From Effrenium voratum (taxonomy: Eukaryota > Sar > Dinophyceae > Suessiales > Symbiodiniaceae), in contig CAUJNA010000455.1 of NCBI GenBank assembly GCA_963377175.1, forward strand, positions 161,572-225,571: a stretch of 64,000 bases of DNA, in the 5' to 3' direction. Of this stretch, positions 44,544 through 58,639 are shown piece after piece. The notes under the pieces are model-generated. The model searched no databases. It had not been told where the DNA came from and saw only the letters and a list, made by a program, of their open reading frames with translations. Both the position numbers and the translations under genes were made by a program. Every line of letters begins with the position of its first letter. Position 1 is the stretch's first letter.

Positions 44544-45534
44544 TATTGAGGATATCCTTTTGAAGGAACCGACATGCACTGAAGGGGTATGATATTAGTA
44601 ATAATTAGCAGCCTTGCAAGCGTGTATTGGTTTTATACAAGCCTCCATGCGTCAAAACCCCATACCTGGAAATGCCAACGAATCATGTGGAAAGTACGTG
44701 CATCACAAGTTGGGTGTTTCTTCTTTCACTAGTTGGATTTGTTGGGTAGGGTTCTCAAAGTTACCTGTGGCCGGGAACTCTTGAAACCACCAGCATAACT
44801 TCCGGTGGATGGTGTCAGGTGGGAAACCCCAGTTCGCTCATTTGGCCATGGGTCAAAACCCCAGACCCCCAGTGAAGATCCCAATCCCCACTAAAGTAAA
44901 ATGGGTGGTGCACCTACTCCAAAATGGTACCATTGGTGTTGACCCATGGCCATTTGAAGATAACCCGCGCCAGGCTCCGGCAGTGCCCTTTGTGGCCACC
45001 CGGGCCAAGGCCGCTCCCAGGCGCAGGGTTTTAAACGGGGAAGGTGAGTAGATTCCAGCGAAATCTCGGCACCTTACTCATGGTCAATCCCGGTGCCCTG
45101 TCTCCGCCAGGTCCACCAGTCAAGTGAAGGGTGCTACATAACCCTCAATAGAAAAGCAAGAGTCAATATTTGGCGTCCGCAGTCAAGGAGATGATATTGG
45201 GTACACTCTCCAAATTACCATTAGGAAATTAGGGGGTTACTTGCAACATTATACGTAATGTCAGTTAGGAGGACAACAAATATTGACCATTGACCTTGGC
45301 CTATTTCCCATAATAATGTCCACCACAGGGTTCTTCATCAAATTTCACAATCATGTGACTCACTGAAATATGTTTGGTAGTTTGGTGTTGGTTTAGCACG
45401 TTTGTTGTTCTTTGAATCCCCAAGAACAGAATTGAACAGGCAAGCTTGCGGGTTAGTGGCGCGAGCCGATTGCCAAGACCTTGGACGGAAGGCTGGCATG
45501 TGGCAGACACCTTTGCCCGCGCGCGCGCGCGGGC

Positions 45535-45537
<3 letters not shown>

Positions 45538-45613
<76 letters not shown>

Positions 45614-45633
45614 TGCGTGGGTGCGTGCGTGGG

Positions 45634-45682
<49 letters not shown>

Positions 45683-45842
45683 GTGTGCGTGCGCGTGCGC
45701 GTGCGCGTGCGCGTGCGCGTGCGCGTGCGCGTGCGCGTGCGCGCGTGTGCGTGTGCGTGTGCGTGTGCGTGTGCGTGTGCGTGTGCGTGTGCGTGTGCGT
45801 GCGCGTGTGCGTGTGCGTGTGCGTGTGCGTGTGCGTGTGCGT

Positions 45843-45875
<33 letters not shown>

Positions 45876-46170
45876 GGTGTGGGTGTGGGTGTGGGTGTGG
45901 GTGTGTGTGGGTGTGGGTGTGGGTGTGGGTGTGTGTGGGTGTGGGTGTGTGTGGGTGTGTGTGTGTGTGTGTGGGGCGTGCGTGCGTGTGCGTGTGTGCG
46001 TGTGTGTGTGCGTGTGCGTGTGTGCGTGTGTGTGTGTGCGTGCGTGCGTGCGTGTGCGTGTGTGTGTGTGTGTGGGTGTGTGTGTGTGTGGTGTGCGTGT
46101 GCGCGTGTGCGCGTGTGCGTGTGCGTGTGCGTGTGCGTGTGCGTGTGCGTGTGCGTGTGCGTGTGCGTGT
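45538..46170 (+). repeat. Long compound (GT)n microsatellite, left flank of the retroelement
   Basis: Blocks run (GT)n, (GTGC)n, (GTGCGC)n, (GTGTGC)n, (GTGTGG)n and back to (GTGTGC)n over 630 bases, preceded by a (GC)n tract. Alternating purine-pyrimidine sequence of this length is a strong Z-DNA candidate. It directly abuts the first terminal repeat at 46171. Confidence 0.9.
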
Positions 46171-46516
46171 GTGTGTGTGCGGAGTGACAGAATACCCTGT
46201 CACCAACATCAAGCTTTCACCTTTACCACAGGGGGCACGGCGCCTGATTTCCAAGCCGTGCCAACGAAGCTACGGAAATCGGGTGGAGGAGATGCTGGAC
46301 GCAGCATCTTGTACCTGCTTCAGTGATTCTGAAAGTCCTTTTGGCCCCTTGGTTGCGGCGCTGTTTGTGCTTCCTGTTCTTTCGGGTAACGTGTTCGCTG
46401 CTAGAGGGAAGCCGAGTGCATCGCGAGCAGAACCCAGTCGAGACTCATCAGTTGTACTCGAGGCTCATCAGTTGCACTCGAAAGATTAGCACCCTCCATC
46501 TGGAGTTTAAGTGTGT
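46171..46516 (+). repeat. 5' terminal direct repeat (pseudo-LTR), 346 bp
   Basis: Starts GTGTGTGTGCGGAGTGACAG and ends GAGTTTAAGTGTGT. It differs from the 3' copy only at 46374 (C against T) and 46463 (G against A), 99.4% identity. Near its end two 20 bp units of the form GAxCTCATCAGTTGxACTCGA lie in tandem. Both ends carry GT repeats like the target. Confidence 0.9.
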
Positions 46517-46793
46517 ACACCCCATTCATGGGGAATCCTCGGGGGTACCCATTGTGTGACCCCGGGCCGGCTTTGTCGGAAAACTCAACGTACTTATCAT
46601 AGAACAGCGGAATTTCACATTTAACCAGGAACGAGGTTTCACTAAAGGGAAGACAGCCGTCAGATCATAGAGACGTCTCACCATTGCTGCTGATGGCTGC
46701 TGACTTAAACTTGCAACTTGCATTGACTTGCATTTTGTCGGATTCGTTTCTCTCAAGATTGAGGTGTTGCGGTTGTGAGTTGGTTGCGCCACC
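46517..46793 (+). promoter_or_regulatory. Leader between 5' repeat and ORF1
   Basis: 277 bases without ORF. Ends with a TTTCTCTCAAG acceptor-like site (AG at 46756) and a GCGCCACC context before the ATG of ORF1. No tRNA primer-binding site was recognised after the repeat. Confidence 0.4.
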
Positions 46794-47978
46794 ATGTCTC
46801 GACGTGATGATCGTGACAGATCCAGGACTCGGCGCAGACGTGATCGGAGTCCTTCCCCTCAAGCTCGTAAAGCACGCCGACGTGAACACAATGACAACCA
46901 GGTCTCGGAGGGCATGGATTGGAACAACCTGGTATCCTGGCAACACAATTCCGGCTACAACTCCGGCAACAATTTCCCGGTGATGCCGAGCAATTATCAA
47001 TCGATTCCAAACCCCACGCAGCAGTTCCATCATTCACCGGTCAACTACATGATGCCGGTTCCTCCAGAGCCCACGCCAGCGAAGTTCATGACGCCCGTGA
47101 TGCCACCACCGGTCACTCCCTCGCAAGCTACACCATCACCTGGATACCCTGCAGCCCTGCCAGTTCGACCTCAGAAAGCCTGGCTTACACCATCGGTTGA
47201 CTGGACACCTGGAGATGGCATGCTAGACATCAACCAGCTCTACAACTTCAGCCTGCCCATGACGGTCGCCAACACCCCGCACAACAACCTACGTGACATG
47301 TCCGGCATGGACATTCGTGACGTTCGCCTGGTTCAGATCATTCACGGGGGCATCACCAACTGGCTGCTCCGACCGTTTGCTCACGGCAGATTCGTGATGT
47401 GGGAAGGCTTTCGCACTCGCACCGAGGCCTTACTTTGGAGTACCTGTTCCAAACTACTACGACGATCCCAGTCGATCAACCTGCTTACCTTGGAAAAGGA
47501 CCTTGCCAGCTCACTGGGGCTCAACCTGGACGACTTCAATCAGCGGATCAAGGTTCATGACCATTTGGCCAACTTGGTGCTTCAGTTTCTTCAGCAACAC
47601 CACGCCACTCTCACGCCCTCTACCCAAACGGATGACATGGTCAAGAAGTTCAATGATCTAAATCGTGCTCATGAGTTGCTCCAGGCTCAGTATTCAGCAT
47701 CGTTACGCGCTTCGACTTCCCCCACGGTGCCAAACCAGAAGGATGATGCAGAGTTGGTTACACCACCACCGGCCAACCACACACAATCTTCGTCACCTCC
47801 CAGCTCCCTCCCTACGGTCAGCGCAGCCGCCCTTGATGGCAAGTCGTTTGATGGCGCGGTGCAACCCCGGATCATTCAGTCTCTTCACGGACTTTCTTCA
47901 CCGCCTTCCAAGCCGGCGGCGTCAAAATTGCTCACCATGCACAGCACGCCGGATGACGTCATCAAGTACTACACATGA
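46794..47978 (+). CDS. Retroelement ORF1: Arg/Ser-rich, gag-like protein, 394 aa
   Basis: ATG in a good context (GCCACCATG). Residues 1-35 are an RS/RR-rich basic segment (MSRRDDRDRSRTRRRRDRSP). Residues 50-140 are Pro/Met-rich and probably disordered. Residues 170-290 are helical with Leu-rich heptads (LLTLEKDLASSLGLNLDDF). The tail is Ser/Pro-rich. Composition and position 5' of the RT suggest an RNA-binding ORF1/gag-like role, but there is no zinc knuckle. The frame ends in TGA yet stays open for another 94 codons with protein-like sequence. Confidence 0.65.
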   Translation: MSRRDDRDRSRTRRRRDRSPSPQARKARRREHNDNQVSEGMDWNNLVSWQHNSGYNSGNNFPVMPSNYQSIPNPTQQFHHSPVNYMMPVPPEPTPAKFMTPVMPPPVTPSQATPSPGYPAALPVRPQKAWLTPSVDWTPGDGMLDINQLYNFSLPMTVANTPHNNLRDMSGMDIRDVRLVQIIHGGITNWLLRPFAHGRFVMWEGFRTRTEALLWSTCSKLLRRSQSINLLTLEKDLASSLGLNLDDFNQRIKVHDHLANLVLQFLQQHHATLTPSTQTDDMVKKFNDLNRAHELLQAQYSASLRASTSPTVPNQKDDAELVTPPPANHTQSSSPPSSLPTVSAAALDGKSFDGAVQPRIIQSLHGLSSPPSKPAASKLLTMHSTPDDVIKYYT

Positions 47979-48260
47979 ACTAGTGATCAGCCACGCTTGT
48001 ATCTCAAGCAATCGCCCACAACCACCACTTTGGCGTCATTGATCAAGTGGGCCAATCACCCGTCCCGTCTCAACGGCAACAAGTCCTTGGATTCCATGGC
48101 GATGCAACTCCTTCAGGCGCGTCAACGCATGCCAAAAGGAGACGCACCTACGTTTGCGGCGATGGCGGCTCTGTGGGGACTGGAGCCTGGCTACCTCACC
48201 AAGCTCACTGACAAGGCGCTGTGTCACCTCATCGTGACCGCCCGCTTACTCAGTGGGTGA
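47979..48260 (+). CDS. In-frame extension of ORF1 after a TGA codon
   Basis: The same frame continues without another stop: TSDQPRLYLKQS, then LIKWANHPSRLNG, a Met/Gln/Leu-rich helix, GDAPTFAAMAALWGLEPGY and LTDKALCHLIVTARLLSG before TGA. The composition is that of a folded helical domain, so the first TGA is either a readthrough codon, a point mutation in this copy or a sequence error. Confidence 0.45.
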   Translation, partial: TSDQPRLYLKQSPTTTTLASLIKWANHPSRLNGNKSLDSMAMQLLQARQRMPKGDAPTFAAMAALWGLEPGYLTKLTDKALCHLIVTARLLSG

Positions 48261-48448
48261 GCAGTTCCCTTCGATCACTTATGAGCCCGGAGCGGCAGCT
48301 GAGTCACGATAGGTTCAAAACTCGTACGTCCTCTTCTTGCTTTGCACTTGTTTGATGATGCGCTTGTCTGTGCTTGCGTTGTCAATTGCTTGGTATTAAT
48401 TGCCGCTTGCATTCATGTCGCCGCCACACTGTAGATTTCATTGGTTGC
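48261..48448 (+). promoter_or_regulatory. TG-rich spacer before ORF2
   Basis: Contains CTTGTTTGATGATGCGCTTG and TTGCTTGG words and ends in CACACTGTAG (AG at 48433), 15 bases before the first ATG of ORF2. Confidence 0.4.
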
Positions 48449-49228
48449 ATGTTCACCATGTTGGCTGAGCTTCGCCGCTGTGGAATCTATGATGTTGTTG
48501 CACAATGGCATTCCTTAGACACCTTTCTGCACTCGTTGACAATGTTCTCTACGTGCTGGCAATACTGCTTTCCTGGACTTCCACCACCGTCGATACCAAT
48601 GGATGAATATGAGTCAGTTGTACAACTACCTTGGTTGGGCCGTATTCTGGAAGTACTAGTTGTGGTCCGGATTGCACTTCAGATTCCGATTCATGCCATG
48701 TCACAGTCTTACCACACTGTGGCCAACAGGTATGAACTTCACAGGTGCCGGTGCACGGCCTATTTATTGATCAGTTTCTTGCAGCGTCTCATTTCTCAAG
48801 ATTATGGATATGTCCCGCCGTTCTTCGAGGTTCTTCACTTCTACAAGACGTCTCTGTTGTGTGAAATTATGCATTCCACCTTTGCAGACACAAGACATCT
48901 TCGCTCATTACGGACACGTTTCCCGGACCTCTATGACTTCATTCACGATCCAGGTCACCATCAACAACCATGCGTCTACATCCGACTTTCTCCATGGCAC
49001 ACTCCATACTACGTTGGTGCAACTGATCACGACGAGAACACTCACGCAGTCGCAAATTTCTACAACTACTTCGGGGACGTCATGCCTTCTTCGAACCTGC
49101 ACTTCACTACTGGAAGCGCACTAACACTTACTGGCTTTTCTGTGCCATTCCGGTTGAGATCAAACTTCCCATTTCCTCGGTTTGGGTCCAGGAAAGCAAG
49201 TGGCAATACTTGCTGCGTCCGCATTTGA
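48449..49228 (+). CDS. Retroelement ORF2 part 1: N-terminal region and first half of GIY-YIG nuclease
   Basis: Start MFTMLAELRRCGIYDVV. After about 170 helical residues the GIY-YIG signature appears: CVYIRLS ... PYYVGATD at 48971-49027. The homologous continuation (SRREHSRSRKFLQ) lies one frame back, so from 49027 this frame (HDENTHAVANFYNY) is probably not the real protein although it stays open to 49228. GIY-YIG enzymes cut one DNA strand using a Tyr-Tyr-Arg-Glu set; here it would open the target for priming. Confidence 0.6.
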   Translation: MFTMLAELRRCGIYDVVAQWHSLDTFLHSLTMFSTCWQYCFPGLPPPSIPMDEYESVVQLPWLGRILEVLVVVRIALQIPIHAMSQSYHTVANRYELHRCRCTAYLLISFLQRLISQDYGYVPPFFEVLHFYKTSLLCEIMHSTFADTRHLRSLRTRFPDLYDFIHDPGHHQQPCVYIRLSPWHTPYYVGATDHDENTHAVANFYNYFGDVMPSSNLHFTTGSALTLTGFSVPFRLRSNFPFPRFGSRKASGNTCCVRI

Positions 49229-50172
49229 ATGCTCCCTGGGCACATAGACTTCTTCGAAAGGTGGGCTTCCGGGAGCATCTAGTTGACTTTCGACGTCATT
49301 CGTTGTCATCTCCCACCTCACTCGGGCTACACAAACGTTTTCGACGACGACTACATCCAGATCTTCAACGGCAATTACGACCTGAAATGTTGGATGACAT
49401 TCAAGCGCATTACTCCTCTCTTTATCAGCTGGGATCCAACACAGGCGCGTCGTTCCAGGCCATGCGAGACTTTCTGTCGGCGGCTTTTCCTCCCACTCAG
49501 CTCTACTACTTCCTGCGACTCTCCGTCTTCGTCAACGAGCCCTTTCGTTCAAAGGCACAGAAGCTCCTCGCCCAGGTGATGCGCAAACGACAGCTCCAAT
49601 CACCAAGCACTTTGACACAACTACTTCTACCACCTCTACATGTACGGAATTGGAAAGCTCAGCTTGGCACGTGGTTACAACGTTGGGTCGCTTCACATCG
49701 TGACTTGTTCCCCTCCCTATTTCTTCCAAAGATCCGGGTGGTGGAAACTCGCAGTGCCACTTTGGGAGACAGGATCTACAACTACCGCACATGGCAACGC
49801 AGATGGACTCCTGACATGTCTTTTCCGTGTCGCTGTTCGGACATTGATGATCACCACCTACACCGTGCACATGAACATGTAGTCATGGTAGATGAGTTCT
49901 CACGCATCAATGCGGACATCGACATGGACATCATGGCTGCGTGCATGAAGGATCAGTATTTCGGCGATGTTGACTTGCTGCACCAGCGTTTTACCACACA
50001 GCTTCGCAAACTAGCTCGTCGGTGGCATGTACATGGCTCCAGTCTTCTTACTGATCTACGGCCTGTTTTGACTCAGTTGATTGATACCCATCGATCCAAC
50101 CTTCAAGATCGTGCTTACTGGACATCCACATCACTACACGCACCGTGGCTTCTCTGTCCTCGTGGGTTGTAA
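49027..50172 (+). CDS. Retroelement ORF2 part 2: second half of GIY-YIG domain and RT linker
   Basis: This frame opens right after a TGA at 49024-49026 and supplies the missing nuclease residues: Arg in SRREHSRSRKF, Trp-rich HYWKRTNTYWLFC, Glu in VQESKW and Asn in LRPHLNAPW. All five positions expected of a GIY-YIG active site are thus present across the two frames. The following 250 residues (Arg- and Leu-rich, with FPCRCSDID and a Cys/His-poor linker) join to the RT. It ends LHAPWLLCPRGL, overlapping the RT frame by about 70 bases. Confidence 0.6.
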   Translation, partial: SRREHSRSRKFLQLLRGRHAFFEPALHYWKRTNTYWLFCAIPVEIKLPISSVWVQESKWQYLLRPHLNAPWAHRLLRKVGFREHLVDFRRHSLSSPTSLGLHKRFRRRLHPDLQRQLRPEMLDDIQAHYSSLYQLGSNTGASFQAMRDFLSAAFPPTQLYYFLRLSVFVNEPFRSKAQKLLAQVMRKRQLQSPSTLTQLLLPPLHVRNWKAQLGTWLQRWVASHRDLFPSLFLPKIRVVETRSATLGDRIYNYRTWQRRWTPDMSFPCRCSDIDDHHLHRAHEHVVMVDEFSRINADIDMDIMAACMKDQYFGDVDLLHQRFTTQLRKLARRWHVHGSSLLTDLRPVLTQLIDTHRSNLQDRAYWTSTSLHAPWLLCPRGL

Positions 50173-51128
50173 TTCCAGCGGATCATTTTCCCTCTCGTGC
50201 ACATGTGATTTGTCCTTCGTTGTTTGCCATACTGATGCACAAGACCTTCTGCTCGGGAGAAGTCTTTTCGCTGTGTCGGGAATCTGCAGCATCCTTTCGC
50301 TCCGAAGTGGTCACTACGATACCTTCCCTCCTACATCAGCGCTACGCGTGGGGACTTCGACTTCAAGCACCGTTGCCTACAGCTCGCATCCTTCCAAAGC
50401 CGACCAAGGACTGGCAGAAAGCGAGACCCATCATTTCTTTCTTTCGCACGTGGGCAGCACCCTTCCTCACGGTCTTCGGCGCCCTCATTTTTGAACTTAC
50501 CAAAGTTACCTTTCCTGACATACCAGGTCAGCTTTCGGTCCAAGAACTTGTCCAACAGCTCTGGGATGCGCTGTCAAAGGCAGATCCCGCCGAATACATC
50601 CACCTGGTGTCTCAGGTCCTGTCCGGTTTCTTCACGTCCATTCCCACGGAGCGTTTCCATCAGGCACTACAGGTGCTTCTTCATCTTTATGACCAAGTAG
50701 TTGGCCTCCGCCGATCCTCACAATGGTCGGTGTACGAATTGAAGTCAGATCATCGACGCCGTATGTTCAAAGGAAAATGGCGCCGCCAAACTAAGGTCCC
50801 TCGAACCTTTCGTGAACAAGACCTTCGTTACCTCCTTGACTTTGTCATTGACAACAGTCACTTCGAGATCAATGGCTACTTGTTCCGGCAAGAACGTGGA
50901 GTCGCTATGGGATCACCTGCAGCACCACCTCTCTGCAATCTGGTTGCCACGGTGGAGGACTTCTTCTGGCACCAAACAATGTGTTCTTTACGTTTTCGCA
51001 TGCCCGATGTCGGGGTGATCTGGCACGAGCGTTATGTCGATAATCGTTTCATCCTGCTACGTGATTCTGCCCCACAATCACCGGTGCTCAGGAATTTCTT
51101 TCCCTGGAATTTTATCGTCCACCAGTGA
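50103..51128 (+). CDS. Retroelement ORF2 part 3: reverse transcriptase fingers and palm
   Basis: Motifs in order: VVIPADHFPSRAHV; RT1-like ARILPKPTKDWQKARPIIS (about 50380-50440); motif A region HLVSQVLSGFFTSIP with Val at 50616-50618 where the catalytic Asp is expected; motif B QERGVAMGSPAAPPLCNLVA (about 50890-50945); motif C RYVDNRF with Tyr-Val-Asp-Asn at 51033-51044. The MGSP and RYVD boxes are typical of Penelope-like RTs; I recall YVDN as the usual form in a dinoflagellate RT family. The Asp-to-Val change (GAC to GTC, one base) should abolish activity. Confidence 0.75.
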   Translation, partial: SRSCLLDIHITTRTVASLSSWVVIPADHFPSRAHVICPSLFAILMHKTFCSGEVFSLCRESAASFRSEVVTTIPSLLHQRYAWGLRLQAPLPTARILPKPTKDWQKARPIISFFRTWAAPFLTVFGALIFELTKVTFPDIPGQLSVQELVQQLWDALSKADPAEYIHLVSQVLSGFFTSIPTERFHQALQVLLHLYDQVVGLRRSSQWSVYELKSDHRRRMFKGKWRRQTKVPRTFREQDLRYLLDFVIDNSHFEINGYLFRQERGVAMGSPAAPPLCNLVATVEDFFWHQTMCSLRFRMPDVGVIWHERYVDNRFILLRDSAPQSPVLRNFFPWNFIVHQ

Positions 51129-51616
51129 TGCTTGAGTTTCAGGATGATGACAAAGTGCTGGGTTACCTCTGTGATTCTTCGTCCAGGACTATTACACCAC
51201 AACTACCTGATCATCCCTCTCAAATTAAAGGGATTCGGAGTGCCAACGATCAGATGTTTACTTACTCTTCGTGGTCTTCTCGCTCGTGGCTCATTATACG
51301 TGGTGCACAACCTGCGGTTCAGCAAAAACATGAACTTAACGCTCTCAAACGCCTTTATGAGGCCAAAGGCTTCGATCCCCATCTCCTTCGTGATGTCCGG
51401 CGACGACTCGAGACAAAATCTGCATGCTGTCTTGTTGCTGTGTTACTTGTGGTGTACGCTTGTGATTGCTTGTCGGAGCGTCTTGTTGTGTCTGCATGCA
51501 GACGGCTCGGAGGTGTTGACCCTTGCATGGCGGCGCCCCTTGTTAGAACATGGCGGAGTATGTTGTCACCAGTCTATTACGCCCAGACGGCACGGTCCAA
51601 ACCACGAGCCAAGTGA
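51065..51616 (+). CDS. Retroelement ORF2 part 4: RT thumb region
   Basis: One frame back from the palm: EFLSLEFYRPPVMLEFQDDD, KVLGYLCDSSSRTITPQ, PSQIKGIRSAND, SSRSWLIIRGAQP and a helix ending LYEAKGFDPHLLRDVRRRL. This matches the post-motif-C order (LG, RSA, SR, ARG, GF) of Penelope-type RTs. The remaining 60 residues are hydrophobic, TG-rich spacer translated by chance. The real stop may be missing or removed by splicing. Confidence 0.55.
   Translation, partial: FCPTITGAQEFLSLEFYRPPVMLEFQDDDKVLGYLCDSSSRTITPQLPDHPSQIKGIRSANDQMFTYSSWSSRSWLIIRGAQPAVQQKHELNALKRLYEAKGFDPHLLRDVRRRLETKSACCLVAVLLVVYACDCLSERLVVSACRRLGGVDPCMAAPLVRTWRSMLSPVYYAQTARSKPRAK
51420..51549 (+). promoter_or_regulatory. TG-rich spacer before ORF3
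   Basis: Repeats of TTGTTGCTGTG and CTTGTGATTGCTTG, then GTCTGCATGCAG (AG at 51500) about 50 bases before the ORF3 ATG. Confidence 0.4.
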
Positions 51617-52722
51617 CGCTGGATCACCTTCCAAACTTCATCAATGGCAATGAGATGCAACTCTTCGTCCAGACACACGGCCTGGTACATCAGCACAATG
51701 TGCAGGCGCACAGCTCTTCCCGTGATGTTCCAGCACTTGGATCATCGACCAACATCAGAGCGGTGCGCAATCATGCAATCGGGAGGCGCTCTCGCTCTCC
51801 TAGATCCCGACGCTCCCGGGTCAAGCTCACACCGGGACCACAAGGGATGTCGGAAGACGAAGAGGACTGGGGAGAATGGAAAGGTGATGGTCTTCGCGCT
51901 CATGATGATCAGAGGAGACCTCGATCGCCTACACTGCCGCCTACTCACTTCAGGGCACCTGTGAACCAGATTGAGCTGCTTCATCTCCCTGTTCGCCAGC
52001 ATGTACCTGACTTGGGCAGTCACCGTTTCACGCTCCGCACTGGCTGCCGGATCGAGGAAATTGCCATCCTGGTTGACGGTGTTCTTTACTACACGTTGCC
52101 CTGCATTGCCACCTTAGTGTTTCCTGAACCTGACAAGTGGAAGAAATCTTGGGAGACGGTCTACAGGAGCCTCATGCCGCATCGCCGCAACATCATCGAG
52201 GATGAGCAGCGGGTGAAGTCCGTCTCAGAACTCCCATTTTCTCCGTTGCCCCATGGTATCCCAGGCCCCTGGACGGCTCATGTTGTCAAGGAGATTTCCA
52301 GCCATTTCCAGATCTCCCCAAAATCCCTGCCGCCACAACTCATTGTTCAGCTTGGCATCTGCGAAGAGGGCTGGCCATATATTCGCAAGACCACACGGAC
52401 GTATCACCAGTTCTCGCCCGACAAGAAGAACGCCCAGAAGAACCTCTTCGGGATCCTCTTCTCGTTCGTGCCTCGCCGATTGCTACCCGATAAGCATCGC
52501 ACACAGTCACACTCGACGTTTTTCTGGGCCCATAATACCAATATGCAGGCTGCCATCAGCATTCTGCGAGATGAGGAGCTGATCAGACCCTCGAAATGGC
52601 AAGAGCAGCCTCTTCCCAATCGCGACTACACAAACTGGAATGAAGTGTGGTTGCCTCCGATGGGCTTCTACTGCAGAGGCAGCCTTCAATCTCATGAAGC
52701 GGCGGTCAAGGCGGCAGCCTAG
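51550..52722 (+). CDS. Retroelement ORF3, 390 aa, possible ADP-ribosyltransferase-like C terminus
   Basis: N terminus hydrophilic; residues 80-125 RS-rich (GRRSRSPRSRRSR) with an acidic patch (SEDEEDWGEW). The middle (residues 145-300) is folded-looking with Pro/Trp. The end, residues 325-385, reads FFWAHNTNMQAAISILRDEE, LIRPSKW, then MGFYCRGS. A His followed by a two-residue turn, ISIL-x-E-x-x-IRPS and GFY is the arrangement of ART/PARP-like and Tpt1-like NAD-using folds. The frame stops early; a better continuation (SREYTLIAPCASVDL to 52945) lies in the next frame. Function uncertain. Confidence 0.5.
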   Translation: MAEYVVTSLLRPDGTVQTTSQVTLDHLPNFINGNEMQLFVQTHGLVHQHNVQAHSSSRDVPALGSSTNIRAVRNHAIGRRSRSPRSRRSRVKLTPGPQGMSEDEEDWGEWKGDGLRAHDDQRRPRSPTLPPTHFRAPVNQIELLHLPVRQHVPDLGSHRFTLRTGCRIEEIAILVDGVLYYTLPCIATLVFPEPDKWKKSWETVYRSLMPHRRNIIEDEQRVKSVSELPFSPLPHGIPGPWTAHVVKEISSHFQISPKSLPPQLIVQLGICEEGWPYIRKTTRTYHQFSPDKKNAQKNLFGILFSFVPRRLLPDKHRTQSHSTFFWAHNTNMQAAISILRDEELIRPSKWQEQPLPNRDYTNWNEVWLPPMGFYCRGSLQSHEAAVKAAA

Positions 52723-52924
52723 TTCGCGGGAGTACACACTGATCGCCCCATGTGCATCGGTGGATCTGCAAGACTCCGGCAACCTCATTGCGCTATTCCC
52801 CGAGGCGGCACGCACGCCGACATTGCTGCCTCCCACCAGTCTGACACCTCCTTTTGCACTGGCCCACCGTGGTTTGTGCCCAGGTTTTCGTGGTATACAT
52901 CATGACGCTCCTCTTCCGGAAAAA

Positions 52925-53056
52925 GCGTGTGGGGTTGCTGCATGATCATGTCTTGGTGCTGTTTGTTGCATGCTTGTCGTATTGCTTGCTGCCTCCGCAG
53001 TTTGAGTTGTCCACTGATTGAAACGCCCTTCCTTTCCAGCCATATTCTACACTGGA
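52925..53056 (+). promoter_or_regulatory. TG-rich spacer before ORF4
   Basis: GTGCTGTTTGTTGCATGCTTG and ATTGCTTGCTGCCTCCGCAG: the clearest polypyrimidine-AG of the series (AG at 52999), 57 bases before the ATG. Confidence 0.45.
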
Positions 53057-53620
53057 ATGGATCATGGCGACCTTTTACGAGAATGCCGGCTTATGCTGCG
53101 TGCCATGTCGTCGCAGATCAGTATTCTTGTGGCTGGACTACAACGTCTTGAAGGTCAGCAACGGCATCCACAGCCGCCACCTCCACCACCAGTACCGGAC
53201 GGGCAACAACCGCCGCCACCCCCACCATCATCGACACCTTCGTCCGTGCCGGCCACATCGGTCCGACCAGATTATCCGACGGTACCAGTCACTCTTGTGG
53301 CCACCTCAGACAACCGGATGGAACACACTGCTCATGTTCATACGGTGAGTGTCAGCACTTCCCGAGAACGCAGACGGAGAAGAAGGTCCAGACACCGGGA
53401 CCCTCATCGGCGTCGGTCACGCAGCCGCAGTCACCACAGGCGTCCTCTTGGCCGCCCTGCCAACGCTGGTTCCACGTCCCACCATCGCACCTTCACGCCA
53501 AAGCACCCACCGCAGTCAAGGCCATGCCGGCGTGCCGACCATCTGGTCTTTCATATGACCGTTGACGGACTACCAGCGGCAAAAGGTCCTCAGCACATCG
53601 ATGTATGCATGTTTTGCTAA
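53057..53620 (+). CDS. Retroelement ORF4: helix, polyproline and RS-rich protein, 187 aa
   Basis: Residues 1-35 are a probable coiled coil (MDHGDLLRECRLMLRAM), residues 37-70 contain two proline runs, and residues 100-150 are Arg/Ser/His-rich with RRRRRRSRHRD and RRRSRSRSHHRR. It shares the layout helix, low-complexity, basic with ORF1 and ORF5, suggesting repeated duplication of an RNA-binding accessory protein. No zinc ligand pattern. Confidence 0.55.
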   Translation: MDHGDLLRECRLMLRAMSSQISILVAGLQRLEGQQRHPQPPPPPPVPDGQQPPPPPPSSTPSSVPATSVRPDYPTVPVTLVATSDNRMEHTAHVHTVSVSTSRERRRRRRSRHRDPHRRRSRSRSHHRRPLGRPANAGSTSHHRTFTPKHPPQSRPCRRADHLVFHMTVDGLPAAKGPQHIDVCMFC

Positions 53621-53685
53621 CATGAGGTTTATGCTGTCCCGCAGCCTTTCTTGCTTGGATTGTCCTTGCAGTGATTTCATTTGCC

Positions 53686-54413
53686 ATGCAGTTCTCAGTG
53701 GAGTTCGTAAACAACCTGGTGGCGGTACTCAATGTCCTCGCATCACAAGTAGCGACTGCTCTGGACACCCTGAACTTTGCCCTGGCGACCGAGCGAAACC
53801 AGCAGTCCGACACCCGAGTGTCCCCCAGACCCCACGCAATTCCAGGCACGGACTGCGCCCTCGCATCATCACAGAGGGCATCTCGTCTGATCGATCTCGC
53901 TCTCCTACTCGAATCCGAACCCGGCCTGTGGATACTTCCTCCACCTGGTATATACCGGCATTATCCCCGCCTCGTGCGGCACATCGGGATGCCACTGACA
54001 GCACTTCTGGTCGCCGCCCAGAGTCAATGTTGGATCGGTTGCCACCGCCAAGACCTCTTGTTCCCCTACCCCCTCGCAGTGGACGCGAACCAGGACAGAC
54101 ATCGCCTACCACACCTGATTCGGATTCGGATGGTTCAATTCGTCGACATCCAGGTGCTTCATCGTTCCGTCCATCTCCCACGGTGGTTCATGGACCTCAG
54201 GAACTTCTACAAGAATTCACTATTGCCCTTCGCAATGCACATCTTGAACCTTTTACGGCGTGGACACAGGGTGAGCTGGATGAGATGGTCAGACGGAAAA
54301 AGGACAAGGATTCCAGGCCCACCTACAAAACCATTGCCCGTTTCCTTCAGAAGCCCATAGAGGAAGTCAAGCACGCCTGGAAGGTCCACCAGCAACTTGA
54401 GGCTCGCGCTTAG
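53686..54413 (+). CDS. Retroelement ORF5: helix plus Pro/Arg-rich protein with helical C-terminal domain, frame-broken
   Basis: Starts MQFSVEFVNNLVAVLNVLAS, a coiled-coil-like helix, after TTGTCCTTGCAG (AG at 53670). At about 53800-53880 the sensible frame moves back by one and continues RIITEGISSDRSRSPTRIRT, PPPRPLVPLPPRSGR, TTPDSDSDGS and a C-terminal domain ELLQEFTIALRNAHLEPFTA, MVRRKKD, YKTIARFLQKPIEEVKHAWK. The last part looks like a small helix-turn-helix-type fold. About 240 aa in all if the frames are joined. Confidence 0.5.
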
Positions 54414-54688
54414 GGCACTGTGCATCGAAAGAACCAGCGACTACCGGAGGACTAGTCCGTAGGACGTGGCAGTGCATTCTGTGAGCGTTGCATGTTGTCG
54501 AGATGGCTTGGATTGCAGACATGGCAGATCGCATGATTCTTTTCTTGCTTGCTTGCATGACATGGCTGGCATACTTTGCAGTAATGACTTGCAGGACCTA
54601 CATGACATTTCTGCCAGTGAGGGCATTGTTGGTTGTCATGGAAGTTGTTGATGACTTGGATTTCATGCATGGCTGAGCTGCTCAGATC
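54414..54688 (+). promoter_or_regulatory. Long TG-rich spacer before ORF6
   Basis: 275 bases with GCTTGCTTGCATGACATGG and two acceptor-like sites, CATACTTTGCAG (AG at 54590) and GACTTGCAG. Short palindrome GGACTAGTCC near 54450. Confidence 0.4.
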
Positions 54689-55258
54689 ATGTTGGAGCAA
54701 GATGTGCAGACATACATCGCTTGGACCCATGGAGCGCAGCCGACGTGGTTACAGTTTCACGGGCCTGGCACATTGCTTGAAAGACCAGTTCGATGGACTG
54801 CTTCACCTCCACCCCCGCCAAGGTTTCCAATACTTCTTTCACCTCCACCTCCTCCACCGCCACCACCACCGGTGATTCTACACCCACAGTTTATGCCCTC
54901 ATTGCGTGCCTCCTCGAGCCCTTCTCCTCAAGGACAGTCCTGCCCTGCCACAGTGAAATCGCAGCGCACACGCCGCTCGATATGCAGCGCTGACCAGTTC
55001 CGTGATGATGATCTACGCAGTCTCACGCGTTCTCCGAAACGCTCTCGAAAAGCATCCGCTTCTGCCCTACGGAGATCTCGGCGACCCTTCACCGTGTTCC
55101 CTTCAAAACGAGCCACCCGTCCATCGCTGTCCCCAGTGACAAGTTGCAAGCATTACTGTCATGCCTTTCTACATCATGGACGGAAGTGTCTTTCTCCCTG
55201 TGCTCGTCGCCGACCAGGACATTACCATTGCAGGTGTGTGCGGCATCAGCGGCGGTGA
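54689..55258 (+). CDS. Retroelement ORF6: Pro- and Arg/Ser-rich protein with a diverged PG motif, 189 aa
   Basis: The N terminus (YIAWTHGAQPTWLQFHGPG) resembles the EWIRIYTPG segment of the four small ORFs downstream but lacks their YREW/YRDW motifs. Residues 40-65 hold two proline runs. Residues 80-150 are RS-rich (RTRRSICSAD, RSPKRSRKAS, ALRRSRRPF). The tail is Cys/His-rich (CKHYCHAFLHH, CHCRCVRH). It may be a fusion or intermediate between the basic proteins upstream and the Trp-rich family. Confidence 0.5.
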   Translation: MLEQDVQTYIAWTHGAQPTWLQFHGPGTLLERPVRWTASPPPPPRFPILLSPPPPPPPPPPVILHPQFMPSLRASSSPSPQGQSCPATVKSQRTRRSICSADQFRDDDLRSLTRSPKRSRKASASALRRSRRPFTVFPSKRATRPSLSPVTSCKHYCHAFLHHGRKCLSPCARRRPGHYHCRCVRHQRR

Positions 55259-55443
55259 AGCATAGGTGTCGTATACTATAGACCTTGTGGATTCGTCCCG
55301 CCTTCAGTTTGAAAAGTTGCCTTGCATTGCGTTGTTCAACACATTCTCATTGCGTCGGGGTTGTCATGGCATGAGTGTTTCGCCGCAGATTCAGTGGCTT
55401 TGCGGTTTCTTTCAGCGGCCCTGTGACGACCCATTTTGCTGTT
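55259..55443 (+). promoter_or_regulatory. Spacer before the first YREW paralogue
   Basis: GTTGTTCAACACATTC and GTTTCGCCGCAG (AG at 55387), 56 bases before the ATG. Confidence 0.4.
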
Positions 55444-55865
55444 ATGTACCCGCACTATTTTGAGTACCACATTGAGAGAGGAGTGGAATGGATTCGAATT
55501 TACACACCGGGCGCGTGGCAACCCGTAGCCACAGCTACTCTGGGACGTGCCCCAGACTACGCTTCCACGTATCGGGAGTGGCGCAAGTCATATCACTTTG
55601 ACGTGTACTTGCCCGCAGACAGCACCGGAGGAACAGCTGCGGACCCTAATGTCATGCCCATTTCGTATGTGTCACACCACGTGTGGGAGTACCGAGACTG
55701 GGAAACACGAGGTTATCCACGCCTTGGCATTCCACTACCAGCCATTGGATCGGCGCGCTCGTGAATGAAGAAGTTACTTCCTCGTCGGAGTCTTCAGTTC
55801 CGGATGGGGCGTGGCCGGAACCTTCTCCCCCACCATTCTATGATCCTTGGAACGAATCGGATTGA
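55444..55865 (+). CDS. YREW-family paralogue 1
   Basis: MYPHYFEYHIERGVEWIRIY begins the family core: EWIRIYTPGAWQPV, YREWRKSYHFDVY, LPADSTGGTA, EYRDWETRGYPRLG. The frame closes at 55764, but one frame back an acidic tail (VNEEVTSSSESSVPDGAWPE, PFYDPWNESD) is open to 55865 and parallels the Ser-rich tail of paralogue 2, so a one-base break lies between about 55700 and 55760. About 140 aa if joined. No signal peptide, no membrane segment. Family unknown to me. Confidence 0.55.
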
Positions 55866-56010
55866 TACTTGAGCAACATGTCGGTTAAAATGATGCGATT
55901 GTGCCTGATTTGATTGCTGCATCAACTTGGGTTGTCTTGACTTGTGTTGTGCTTTCCGTCTCCATGTTTTCGCCGCTCCCTTTTGCCTCAAAGCGGCTTC
56001 CCTGGTTGAT
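55866..56010 (+). promoter_or_regulatory. Spacer before the second YREW paralogue
   Basis: TTGTCTTGACTTGTGTTGTG, then a pyrimidine-rich run ending TTTTGCCTCAAAG (AG at 55992), 17 bases before the ATG. Confidence 0.4.
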
Positions 56011-56454
56011 ATGTTCAATTCTACAATATATGGCACTGCAAGATGGACCCTACCACGCTACTTTGAGTACGACATCGTCAATGGCCCTGCGAGCACAAGC
56101 GTTGAATGGATTCGGGTCTATGTACCTGGTCCGTGGCAACCAGTCGCCGAAATCACCTTGGGACCGGCCCCGGAGGACACAACCACCTATCGGGAATGGC
56201 ACAAATTCTACCACTTCGACGTGTATTGGCCTAGTGACAGCACGGGCGGCACCAATATGGGCTCTGTTTCCCAGCCAGTCTCATATGCGTCCTTTTATAC
56301 ATGGCAGTATCGTGACTGGGTCAGCAGAGGATATCAACGGCTCGGTCATCCGCGCCCCAACATTGCACGTCCAGTTTTCGCTTCGGGATCACCAGACCTC
56401 ATGTACGCTGGACTGTCCTCTTCGTCGGCATCCTCGAACTCAGATGGTGGCTGA
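56011..56454 (+). CDS. YREW-family paralogue 2, 147 aa, intact
   Basis: The best-preserved member: RYFEYDIVNG, VEWIRVYVPGPWQPVAEITL, YREWHKFYHFDVYWPSD, STGGTN, QYRDWVSRGYQRLG and a Ser-rich tail (SSSSASSNSDGG). It aligns over most of its length with paralogue 1, including the FDVYxPxDSTGGT insert, which paralogues 3 and 4 lack. So 1 and 2 form the younger pair. Confidence 0.65.
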   Translation: MFNSTIYGTARWTLPRYFEYDIVNGPASTSVEWIRVYVPGPWQPVAEITLGPAPEDTTTYREWHKFYHFDVYWPSDSTGGTNMGSVSQPVSYASFYTWQYRDWVSRGYQRLGHPRPNIARPVFASGSPDLMYAGLSSSSASSNSDGG

Positions 56455-56633
56455 TGTTCGTCCTCGTCTTTCCTGGATATTCAATTCAATTTGATTGGGG
56501 CGAGTGACTTTGACACCTGAGCCGCGCCTTGCTACAAAAGTGTTTGCTTGCATGTTTGCTGTTGTGTCACATTGTAGTACTAGTAGCCTGCAGCCGTACA
56601 CCTCTCAATTTGTCATCAAGGGTTTGAGTTGTC
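56455..56633 (+). promoter_or_regulatory. Spacer before the third YREW paralogue
   Basis: TTTGCTTGCATGTTTGCTG, then GTTGTGTCACATTGTAG (AG at 56576), 57 bases before the ATG. Confidence 0.4.
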
Positions 56634-57215
56634 ATGCCGTGGCTGGAGTGGTGCCCGGATCCTCAACAGCCAGATGCCCAGTGGGTCAAGATCTTTCACC
56701 CGGGATCATGGACTCCACAGGACGAACATGATGCTCCGCCTCCGCCTCATACATACAGAGAGTGGAAGGAGTTCTATGTCCCAAATCCTGATCAAGAAGG
56801 TGCGCAGCCCGACAACAGCATTTGGTACAAAAGGGACTGGGCCACAGAGGGCTATCGGCGAGTCGCTGCCCCTCAAGCTGGTCACGACTTCGATTCGATG
56901 TCTTTTCCTGATCAACATAGCGTGGCCACGCAATCCTCGGCTTTGTGTATGTCACCGCAAATGTTGAATGCGATTCTTAGATCATCGGATGCGGCGGCTT
57001 TCTCCACTGAGGATCTCACTCGTCTTCAAGATGGGATCTCTCAACAACTGTCGGATCGCGCACGTCATGCATCCCAACAACACCAACCAGTACGTGCATC
57101 TCGTGGAGTTGCACCACCAGAGTCTATTGGGGTCTCTGATCCATACCTGCCTACGACCCAATCATGCAGCTCCACCGCCAAGGAGAAGCCTATCTTCGAG
57201 CTAAATGATGAATAG
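56634..57215 (+). CDS. YREW-family paralogue 3, 193 aa, intact
   Basis: MPWLEWCPDP then QWVKIFHPGSWTPQDE, YREWKEFYVPNPDQEG, IWYKRDWATEGYRRV. After residue 80 comes an extra domain absent from paralogues 1 and 2: MSPQMLNAILRSSDAAAFST, LTRLQDGISQQLSDRARHA, helical, followed by a Pro/Ser-rich tail ending IFELNDE. Short, Trp-rich, no Cys pairs. Role unknown. Confidence 0.65.
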   Translation: MPWLEWCPDPQQPDAQWVKIFHPGSWTPQDEHDAPPPPHTYREWKEFYVPNPDQEGAQPDNSIWYKRDWATEGYRRVAAPQAGHDFDSMSFPDQHSVATQSSALCMSPQMLNAILRSSDAAAFSTEDLTRLQDGISQQLSDRARHASQQHQPVRASRGVAPPESIGVSDPYLPTTQSCSSTAKEKPIFELNDE

Positions 57216-57358
57216 ACTGATGGCACAAAAGGGTGCTTTTCATGCTTGTGCTTCCTTGCTTGGTTGCTGATTGTGCATGTTTGTACATGGTGACTGTTTC
57301 TTTGCTAGCTGGATCTGAACCCGCGGTACGTCCTGTCTCTGAGATCTCTCACTTCGGC
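57216..57358 (+). promoter_or_regulatory. Spacer before the fourth YREW paralogue
   Basis: GCTTGTGCTTCCTTGCTTGG and CTGTTTCTTTGCTAG (AG at 57307), 51 bases before the ATG. Confidence 0.4.
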
Positions 57359-57870
57359 ATGGACATCGAGGATGCAAAGCAGTACCCATGGCTCGAATAT
57401 TCGGTCTGGCAGGATCAGGAGTGGGTGCGGATCTATACTCCGGGACAACCTCAACGGTGGCAACCAGGAGAAACCGTACCTGACCTACCAGACAACTCGT
57501 TTCGGGAGTGGAAGCGGGTAACTGATCCCATTGTGGGACTGGAGAACACAATCAGGCGTGGACCATTCGCGACTGGCAGCATCAAGGATACCAACGCATT
57601 CTTTCTCGCTGGGAGTCCTTCTCCACACATCATGCCCGTGATCAATCACTTGTTGACGTGCAGAATTCGGACGCAATCCGAGTTGAGGAAATGTTCACCT
57701 ATGCTCCCCCTATTTCTGACGGTGATCGCTCGACTGCTTTGCAATTCCCTCCAGTCTTCTATGGCGACACCCGTAATGCTCATCGTGGTGATCTTTCGTT
57801 CCCGTCTTCTGAGCGGCTTAGGGCAGTTTCGCGTTCCCCTCGCCGCGGTGGATATTTTGGCAAACGATAG
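57359..57870 (+). CDS. YREW-family paralogue 4, one frame break
   Basis: MDIEDAKQYPWLEYSVWQDQ, EWVRIYTPGQPQRWQPGE, FREWKRVTDPIVG, then one frame back from about 57530-57565: WTIRDWQHQGYQRILSRWE, EEMFTYAPPISDGDRST and a basic tail (RAVSRSPRRGGYFGKR) to TAG. The family motif spans the break, so the join is well supported. It starts with the same PWLE opening as paralogue 3. About 170 aa. Confidence 0.55.
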
Positions 57871-57916
57871 AGACACAAGTTGAGCATGTGATCTTCCTGC
57901 AGAAAAAGAGACTTCT

Positions 57917-57935
57917 CGCCCCTCACTGAGGGGCG
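57917..57935. terminator. Perfect GC-rich hairpin just before the 3' terminal repeat
   Basis: CGCCCCTCA and TGAGGGGCG are exact complements around one base, ending at the first base of the 3' repeat. It could be a processing, termination or priming structure; the label is a guess. Confidence 0.4.
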
Positions 57936-58280
57936 TGTGTGTGCGGAGTGACAGAATACCCTGTCACCAACATCAAGCTTTCACCTTTACCACAGGGGGC
58001 ACGGCGCCTGATTTCCAAGCCGTGCCAACGAAGCTACGGAAATCGGGTGGAGGAGATGCTGGACGCAGCATCTTGTACCTGCTTCAGTGATTCTGAAAGT
58101 CCTTTTGGCCCCTTGGTTGCGGCGCTGTTTGTGCTTCTTGTTCTTTCGGGTAACGTGTTCGCTGCTAGAGGGAAGCCGAGTGCATCGCGAGCAGAACCCA
58201 GTCGAGACTCATCAGTTGTACTCGAGACTCATCAGTTGCACTCGAAAGATTAGCACCCTCCATCTGGAGTTTAAGTGTGT
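57935..58280 (+). repeat. 3' terminal direct repeat (pseudo-LTR), 346 bp
   Basis: Same 346 bases as 46171-46516 with two substitutions. Its 3' end, GTTTAAGTGTGT, runs straight into the right-hand (GT)n flank. Confidence 0.9.
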
Positions 58281-58385
58281 GTGTGTGTGTGTGTGTGTCT
58301 CCGTGTGTCTCTGTGTGTCTGTTTGTGTGTGTGTGTCTGTGTCTGTGTCTGTGTCTGTGTGTGTGTCTGTGTGTGTGTGTGTGCG
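58281..58385 (+). repeat. (GT)n/(GTCT)n microsatellite, right flank of the retroelement
   Basis: GT dinucleotides with CT interruptions for about 105 bases, the counterpart of the 630-base GT tract to the left. Confidence 0.9.
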
Positions 58386-58506
58386 TAGCCTGCTGTATTT
58401 CAGTTCAGCTCACTACTCAGATTTTCTGGCTTCGCTTTGTGTTGTAAGTCAACTTTGGGGCATAGCATACTTTGGTGTTCAACCAGAGAGCGGTGCCACA
58501 GGAACA

Positions 58507-58639
58507 TACCCCCTACTCCAAATACCCTCTTTTTCTAGGGTATGATGTCGACCCTCTACTAAAAAGGATGCATTTTCCATGGAAACCCAGGTTTTTCAAG
58601 AAATACCCCAAACAACGTGGGTATTTGGAGTAGGGGGTA
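58507..58639. mobile_element. MITE-like element with 21 bp perfect inverted ends
   Basis: Ends TACCCCCTACTCCAAATACC(C) and (G)GGTATTTGGAGTAGGGGGTA are exact complements over 21 bases; 133 bases overall, no ORF. Confidence 0.8.

Follow-up and report, generated by a model that had tools for sequence, protein, structure and literature searches.

A repeated ten-gene mobile element of the dinoflagellate Effrenium voratum, likely a Penelope-like retrotransposon

Introduction

What kind of unit places ten open reading frames (ORFs) on one strand between two direct repeats in a dinoflagellate genome, and does it move as a whole? The question is raised by 12,110 bp at positions 46171-58280 of a stretch of 64,000 nucleotides from Effrenium voratum (assembly GCA_963377175.1, contig CAUJNA010000455.1, forward-strand positions 161,572 to 225,571), hereafter the window. 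An earlier note on this DNA, made from its letters, had proposed a giant multi-gene retroelement of Penelope-like type with cargo genes. Penelope-like elements (PLEs) are described as a poorly understood class of eukaryotic retroelements sharing ancestry with telomerase (PMC6431247, PMC3846280).

Across the genome we find colinear copies with paired repeats, ten ORFs kept in order and under selection, insertion into GT tracts in one orientation, and miniature derivatives. We consider it likely that the window holds a dead copy of a repeated ten-gene dinoflagellate mobile element that moves as a Penelope-like retrotransposon. With somewhat less assurance, we lean towards a giant nuclease-bearing element of Penelope type whose mobile unit is a ten-gene genome, in which four of the genes would form a family expanded inside the element and the miniatures would mark the RNA signal (repeat plus 166 nt) at which reverse transcription starts. 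Coordinates of all features are collected in Table 1.

Results

Full-length copies share the whole interior

The genome searched comprises 1.156 Gb in 3,699 contigs. With the repeat as query, 40 of 1,613 first-look candidates were scored and gave 41 matches, namely 13 pairs and 15 singles, to which the following copy counts refer. Seven pairs are spaced 11.4-11.9 kb, one 21.9 kb, one 7.8 kb and four 1.4-1.5 kb. Eight full-length copies carry both repeats and the entire interior in colinear order, with pairwise identities of 76.6-98.2%; the pair spaced 21.9 kb is a full copy enlarged by a 10.1-kb long terminal repeat (LTR) retrotransposon, and the 13 pairs also include one deletion copy of 8.2 kb. 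Two insertions are each represented by duplicated loci sharing their left flank (C868/C3179 and C1477/C919).

These copies refute the reading, also weighed in the earlier note, that the ORFs downstream of the reverse transcriptase (RT) are host genes enclosed in a single event when a short RT element inserted on both sides; nothing beyond that note's caution speaks for it. The interior recurs with conserved frames in eight full-length copies and its order is kept in a second subfamily, so that a single trapping event is almost certainly wrong. Nor do the other repeats bracket only an RT, since eight pairs hold the full interior and four are miniatures. Several copies with the same ORF order, which the note had proposed to look for, are thus at hand: the eight full-length ones and two of the second subfamily.

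The second subfamily was found by a search with the ORF2 relative P0002, in which the best 44 of 2,150 candidates were scored. The ORF2 frame is open in 44/44 of these places, over 1,038-1,518 amino acids (aa) at 94-98% identity to P0002, a count that favours intact copies since only the best candidates were scored. Two copies, present over most of their length, are 72-80% identical to the window copy over aligned stretches and hold the same ORFs in the same order, the proteins of the two subfamilies being 61-91% identical depending on the ORF. Near the left end both are interrupted by N, over 100 bases in one and 1,386 in the other. Among four more copies whose ends were inspected, two possess a pair of complete, 100% identical repeats, and two are interrupted by N on the left. 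In some copies ORF3 continues the frame of ORF2, as at C1779 (L053-L054) where both form one frame of 1,493 aa; this fusion (~1,493 aa) occurs in part of the second subfamily, the two frames being separate elsewhere.

Some single repeats and neighbouring copies deserve separate mention. At C3423 (L029, L014), a full copy starts exactly at the 3′ end of an older one (~74-79% identical), having inserted head-to-tail where the resident element ends in GTGTGT; the single repeat there belongs to the older copy. Eleven of the 14 other single repeats were inspected together with ~1 kb of flanking DNA per side. Of these, six border on the full element's body (in one case rearranged), three on the middle part of the miniatures, one (L031) matches 33 bp of body followed by N, and L030 (C1780:859707-860053, 98% identical to the window repeat) is a solo repeat in a GT tract. 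At C350:175600-177100 (L064), two ORF2 copies lie 11.2 kb apart on the same strand. The late part of a body is followed there by 100 bases of N, then by an incomplete repeat and another body, an arrangement that may represent a tandem. Neither C350 nor C3297 is claimed as a head-to-tail tandem, because there is an N gap at each join. Tandem or partial-tandem copies are described for PLEs (PMC11167929). The 10.1-kb LTR retrotransposon mentioned above lies inside ORF2 at C3209 (L021-L022); it has LTR-like ends 97.5% identical, a frame of 1,917 aa that by eye looks gag-pol-like, and a separate 555-aa ORF which matches PF01885 (RNA 2′-phosphotransferase) with an expect value (E) of 1.2e-5 and 25.8 bits, the cut-off being 26.

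Ten ORFs are under purifying selection

Coding regions were defined by sliding windows and per-ORF counts, and the ratio of nonsynonymous to synonymous substitution rates (dN/dS) was computed from eight copies in 28 pairs, which are not independent; the selection measured acted on lineages ancestral to these copies. The ratio is 0.10-0.43 in 10/10 ORFs, against 0.72-2.7 in the other two frames. All ten ORFs are under purifying selection. The ORFs on one strand, at least ten, that had been read from the letters thus hold as ten plus-strand coding regions, which occupy the 12.1 kb interior. In-frame stops, frameshifts uncounted, are present in ORF6 and ORF7 of 3/8 copies each, in ORF8 of 4/8 and ORF10 of 5/8, in ORF1, ORF3 and ORF5 of 1/8 each, and in ORF2, ORF4 and ORF9 of 0/8; several copies carry frameshifts in addition.

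ORF2 combines nuclease-like and RT-like parts

ORF2 displays, in this order, a GIY-YIG-like block, a CxC box, KARPII, SQDLSGFFTSIP, GVAMGSPAAPPLCN, RYVDN and a thumb-like end. Its motifs presumably resemble those of PLEs, and the ~90 residues between motifs A and B would presumably fit an insertion in the fingers of telomerase-like RTs. FPCRC, in the CxC box between the nuclease-like and RT-like parts, is invariant in 10/10 aligned relatives. The succession of GIY-YIG and RT announced earlier stands as an order of motifs within one ORF, while neither domain rises above its Pfam cut-off.

In the window copy, this ORF is broken by a 10-bp deletion near 49028 and by 1-bp deletions near 50138 and 51094. 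All three are private to it, being absent from the other eight of nine aligned copies, so that the split RT gene reflects damage confined to the window copy; introns or programmed frameshifts were rejected as its cause for the same reason. The frame is open in C174 and C311 from ~48360 to past 51600 (window coordinates). Moreover, the Asp of motif A is replaced by Val (SQVLSGFF, compared with SQDLSGFF in relatives). The three frameshifts in ORF2, together with the loss of this catalytic Asp, mean that the window copy is dead.

Terminal repeats are renewed at each insertion into GT tracts

The 346 bp direct repeats around 12.1 kb described in the earlier note were recovered as such. In the window copy they are 99.4% identical and lie 11,764 bp apart from start to start; in the copies examined, the repeat begins with GTGTGTGTGCGG, with one-base variants, and ends with AAGTGTGT. 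Within copies, repeat identity is 98.5-100% in 13/13 pairs, while full-length copies differ by 2-23%. The pair is thus renewed at each insertion, in the manner of the direct pseudo-LTRs of PLEs.

Insertions are found on average in GT-rich microsatellites. The GT/TG share of the 20-nt flanks is 0.50 on the left (17 flanks) and 0.55 on the right (18 flanks), compared with 0.147 in the window outside the element; two duplicate loci, L033 and L035, are omitted from both counts. It is on the coding strand of the element that the tracts read GT, CA/AC making up 0.06 of the 40-nt flanks. The bias is an average one: a share of at least 0.6 is reached in only 5/17 left and 7/18 right flanks, and some junctions show short GT only (for example C174 and C224, both on the right). 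Such a bias to a microsatellite, here with one polarity, is a feature of PLEs with an N-terminal GIY-YIG domain. In the window, a GT/GC-rich microsatellite of ~640 bp stands immediately left of the insertion.

These ends bear on two other classes of retroelements. An LTR retrotransposon, or a relative of it, with several captured genes would have true LTRs as its repeats, and the GIY-YIG-like block would be incidental. Both ends are precise and the repeat pairs near-identical, there is the solo repeat at C1780, and no 5′-truncated copies were seen, all of which such an element would explain. Yet the repeat runs from GTGTGT to GTGTGT instead of TG to CA, insertion is keyed to GT tracts in one polarity, a nuclease-like block precedes the RT in the same ORF, and Pfam detects no protease, RNase H or integrase in the ten ORFs. 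We regard this origin as improbable. A tyrosine-recombinase retroelement with direct repeats, of DIRS/Ngaro type, would share the direct terminal repeats, the several ORFs and a short repeated target; since its recombinase domain is absent from the ten ORFs (Pfam) and the repeats are plain terminal copies that are not split, we hold it to be very improbable.

Miniatures delimit a conserved non-coding region

What the four miniatures (1.75-1.89 kb) have in common with the full element is limited to the repeats, the 166 bp that open the body and the 33 bp preceding the second repeat. Their middle part of ~0.9 kb matches nothing in the full element and contains none of its coding part. Conservation singles out the same place: among 598 segments of 166 nt compared in 23 divergent pairs, the six most conserved start at 46431-46531, i.e. 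at the junction of repeat and body, with a conservation of 0.94-0.97 versus a median of 0.85, though this segment is non-coding. At the other end, a hairpin GCCCCTC-NNN-GAGGGGC abuts the 3′ repeat and is present in its strict form in 22/23 right-hand ends.

PLEs with an N-terminal GIY-YIG domain are not known to carry the canonical hammerhead, and the window copy agrees with this. The Rfam scan of 45900-58600, on the window copy, gave no hammerhead, its two matches (E 0.013 and 0.22) falling on the TG repeat.

The cargo proteins include four paralogues

Arginine/serine (RS)-rich stretches are a recurrent feature of the cargo, being found in ORF1, ORF3, ORF4 and ORF5. In ORF1 they occupy the N-terminus and are followed by a proline-rich middle. 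ORF3 combines an RS-rich middle with a conserved C-terminal domain without known relatives, and its structure model has a predicted local distance difference test (pLDDT) value of 44. ORF5 carries RS-type repeats and a C-terminal stretch resembling Myb_DNA-bind_6 (E 0.21, below the cut-off), and ORF6 a proline tract with a Cys/His-rich C-terminus. ORF10 weakly matches the Reelin repeat (E 0.023, below the cut-off).

ORF7-10 are four diverged paralogues, with blastp values down to 3e-41 and hhalign probabilities of 93-99.9% in 6/6 pairs. In 20 comparisons of the other ORFs with these four, only ORF3-ORF10 stands out (probability 70%, E 4e-5), the rest remaining below 2%; a distant relationship of ORF3 and ORF10 is possible from this profile match. 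Pfam (ten ORFs) and NCBIfam (seven ORFs) returned no match above cut-off, and a protein search with ORF3 gave 67 relatives at E up to 10, none of them named or domain-bearing. An ADP-ribosyltransferase/KptA-like fold for ORF3, considered on account of a sequence pattern, was unsupported (hhalign E 0.41, no PDB profile match).

Ten maintained ORFs, RS-rich basic proteins compatible with RNA packaging and an array of four paralogous genes might also belong to a virus-like genome, that is to say an endogenous RNA-to-DNA virus with ORF1 and ORF7-10 as structural proteins. No virus-like domain exceeds the cut-off in Pfam (ten ORFs) or NCBIfam (seven ORFs), and no named or domain-bearing protein is among the matches listed in the protein searches; we find this origin improbable.

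The host offers a candidate route for expression

A 21-nt stretch of the dinoflagellate spliced leader has 251 exact copies in the genome and its reversed control 0. These copies in the host and the repeated copies of the element bear out the earlier claim of a giant multi-gene mobile element with cargo in a dinoflagellate. A canonical 22-nt spliced leader is described for this group (PMC3101222). The ten ORFs could be expressed from a single long transcript that spliced-leader trans-splicing would divide. Pyrimidine-rich tracts upstream of each ORF, where acceptors would lie, give a weak signal, with means of 0.50-0.69 compared with 0.54 (sd 0.06) for all windows. Elsewhere in the genome, C722:109307-122977 holds a dense one-strand array of spliced-leader copies.

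Table 1. Features of the element in the window (coordinates count from the first letter of the window)
Feature	Coordinates	Strand	Remarks
GT-rich microsatellite left of insertion (left limit approximate)	45532..46170	+	(GT)n resumes right of 58280
5′ terminal direct repeat (pseudo-LTR), 346 bp	46171..46516	+	starts GTGTGTGTGCGGAGTG, ends AAGTGTGT
Non-coding cis region, 166 nt, first letters ACACCCC	46517..46682	+	retained in miniatures; conservation peak
ORF1 region, ~490 aa in other copies, stop at 47978 here	46794..48258	+	dN/dS 0.17
ORF2 region: GIY-YIG-like nuclease, CxC box, RT-like domain, thumb-like C-terminus	48359..51616	+	dN/dS 0.10
GIY-YIG-like block of ORF2, PCVYIRLSPWHTPYYVGAT ... 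LRPHLNAPW	48968..49239 (core 48968-49024, domain end near 49239)	+	motif
CxC box SFPCRC of ORF2	49819..49836	+	motif
RT-like motifs of ORF2: KARPII, LSGFFTSIP (motif A, Asp lost here), GVAMGSPAAPPLCN (motif B), RYVDN (motif C)	50418..51044	+	
ORF3 region, ~425-470 aa in relatives, stop at 52722 here	51550..52836	+	dN/dS 0.19
ORF4 region, ~170 aa, proline- and RS-rich	53057..53563	+	dN/dS 0.20
ORF5, ~240 aa	53686..54411	+	dN/dS 0.13
ORF6, ~190-230 aa	54689..55256	+	dN/dS 0.39
ORF7 region, ~140-160 aa, paralogue 1	55444..55863	+	dN/dS 0.43
ORF8, ~150-160 aa, paralogue 2	56011..56452	+	dN/dS 0.25
ORF9, ~193 aa, paralogue 3	56634..57213	+	dN/dS 0.26
ORF10 region, ~170-230 aa, paralogue 4	57359..57868	+	dN/dS 0.34
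Hairpin GCCCCTC-ACT-GAGGGGC directly 5′ of 3′ repeat	57918..57934	+	present in miniatures too
3′ terminal direct repeat (pseudo-LTR), 346 bp	57935..58280	+	99.4% identical to the 5′ repeat

Discussion

Membership among the PLEs is the weak point of our interpretation, RT and GIY-YIG being recognized by motifs and sub-threshold matches, and several results weigh against it. For neither domain do Pfam, NCBIfam or PDB yield a match that passes the threshold, and the Pfam GIY-YIG profile does not match ORF2 even at E up to 10. RVT_1 appears in 1/10 relatives (P0005, a predicted protein lacking the stretch between motifs A and B; E 0.0032, 17.6 bits versus a cut-off of 29.6) and in 1/36 further relatives (E 0.26, below cut-off), fewer than are matched by the unrelated Pfam family U9-ORF (5/10 and 11/36, best E 0.0089, below the cut-off where shown). 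The sole PDB match of P0005 is an RT, aligned at motifs A and B with E 1.1, and the remaining PDB searches with ORF2 relatives gave nothing or unrelated weak matches. Motif C, usually YxDD in RTs, deviates as YVDN, both in the window (51030-51044) and in P0113, a relative at some distance (58% to the first aligned sequence). The AlphaFold model of ORF2 has a mean pLDDT of 31. In the 166-nt region, 0/42 pairs covary as expected for an RNA structure. Finally, no 5′-truncated copies were seen among the 13 pairs and 11 singles, a search seeded with the repeat, with 40 of 1,613 candidates scored, from which many such copies would escape; 5′ truncation is described as frequent in PLEs (PMC9033089).

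With hhalign, the GIY-YIG block of ORF2 aligns at E 0.03 with a genuine GIY-YIG ORF that this genome also encodes, the match falling exactly on YxGxT...R; 2 of 200 shuffled controls were equally good, and the full ORF2 profile aligns at the same place with E 0.24. All 16 protein-search matches listed for ORF2, as well as the 120 that were listed among 157 matches of the RT region, are unnamed and without Pfam domain. Other GIY-YIG ORFs of the genome were considered as a bridge to known PLEs and set aside, the one family examined (C738) being virus-like and not PLE. At C738:129000-133400 (L063), a 224-aa GIY-YIG ORF has as neighbours an ATPase-like frame and a fibre-like one of 815 aa, by eye a virus-like integrated element, and many further GIY-YIG ORFs of equal length are found elsewhere in the genome.

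A parallel for how the element may move is the Poseidon element PAc of Anolis. There, the template must include the first 172 nt of the ORF, where a protein-binding motif is proposed to lie, and reverse transcription is initiated at an internal template position, 111-118 nt into the ORF (PMC11167929). As both the miniatures and the peak of conservation point to a comparable position, we infer nicking of GT tracts and pairing with GUGUGU. In the proposed course of events, the GIY-YIG-like nuclease, if active, would nick (GT)n microsatellite DNA, and the nicked target end would pair with the GUGUGU that ends the repeat. The RT-like domain might then copy the element RNA from the repeat-body junction, back through repeat and body, with the 166-nt segment, by analogy with the 172 nt of PAc, as the presumed place where the ORF2 protein binds the RNA. 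Initiation inside the template, with extension past the repeat, would yield repeat-body-repeat units. The nine other proteins (ORF1 and ORF3-6, several of them RS-rich, together with ORF7-10) may serve the element, e.g. in RNA packaging, nuclear targeting or the handling of host chromatin. A further point against this scheme is that the PAc start site is not homologous to the cut DNA (PMC11167929), so that the dinoflagellate element would differ by using homology.

An abundant ten-gene version with many open ORF2 frames offers a case of cargo that selection maintains, beyond simple capture, and the miniatures give a natural definition of the cis signal. In its dinoflagellate host, trans-splicing could serve to express all ten ORFs from the one strand. 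As nine of the proteins have no known-family match above cut-off (Pfam, and NCBIfam for seven ORFs) and ORF2 is recognized by motifs only, the element is a source of new protein families.

Among known systems, the closest in layout are the N-terminal-nuclease PLEs Naiad and Chlamys, reportedly described by Craig et al. in 2021. Such PLEs hold GIY-YIG, CxC box and RT in one ORF, are framed by pseudo-LTRs, favour microsatellites and are not known to carry a hammerhead. The element described here shares the GIY-YIG-like, CxC and RT-like order in one ORF, the pseudo-LTRs, the microsatellite target and the lack of a detected hammerhead. It differs by its 12.1 kb and ten ORFs, compared with a few kb and one or two ORFs, by an RT too diverged for Pfam with YVDN as motif C, and by its dinoflagellate host. 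PLEs are typically 4-6 kb with one or two ORFs (PMC6431247), a canonical size which 12.1 kb and ten ORFs do not match.

In this respect, the element recalls the Terminons of bdelloid rotifers, giant units of PLE type with many accessory ORFs, which are described as reaching up to 40 kb, without nuclease in the RT unit and with telomeric repeats next to a hammerhead (PMC6431247). The likeness to Terminons drawn in the earlier note is sound for size and gene number and fails for the nuclease in the RT unit and the telomeric location: here, a GIY-YIG-like block is part of the RT ORF, the target is (GT)n, no hammerhead was found in the window copy, and none of the accessory functions listed there for Terminons is matched above cut-off. 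PAc shares the pLTR-body-pLTR structure (pLTR, pseudo-LTR), the need for RNA just downstream of the pLTR and the template-internal initiation, and differs by a C-terminal GIY-YIG, a single ORF, a hammerhead and an AT-rich target non-homologous to the start site (PMC11167929). In Adineta vaga, Penelope terminal repeats frame and mobilise host genes (PMC3846280); these are moved in trans as separate units, whereas here nine extra genes are part of every full copy examined.

The Chlamys PLEs of the brown alga Ectocarpus provide another case outside animals and plants, with no multi-gene unit in the description consulted, which presents them as extending PLEs to the stramenopile-alveolate-rhizarian group (PMC12477816). 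According to the same 2025 source, PLEs were unreported from that group before Ectocarpus (PMC12477816). Among the open-licence papers listed, no title or abstract gave a PLE from a dinoflagellate or another alveolate. If the PLE reading is true, then, as far as these searches reach, no multi-gene PLE would have been known before outside rotifers and no PLE at all from an alveolate.

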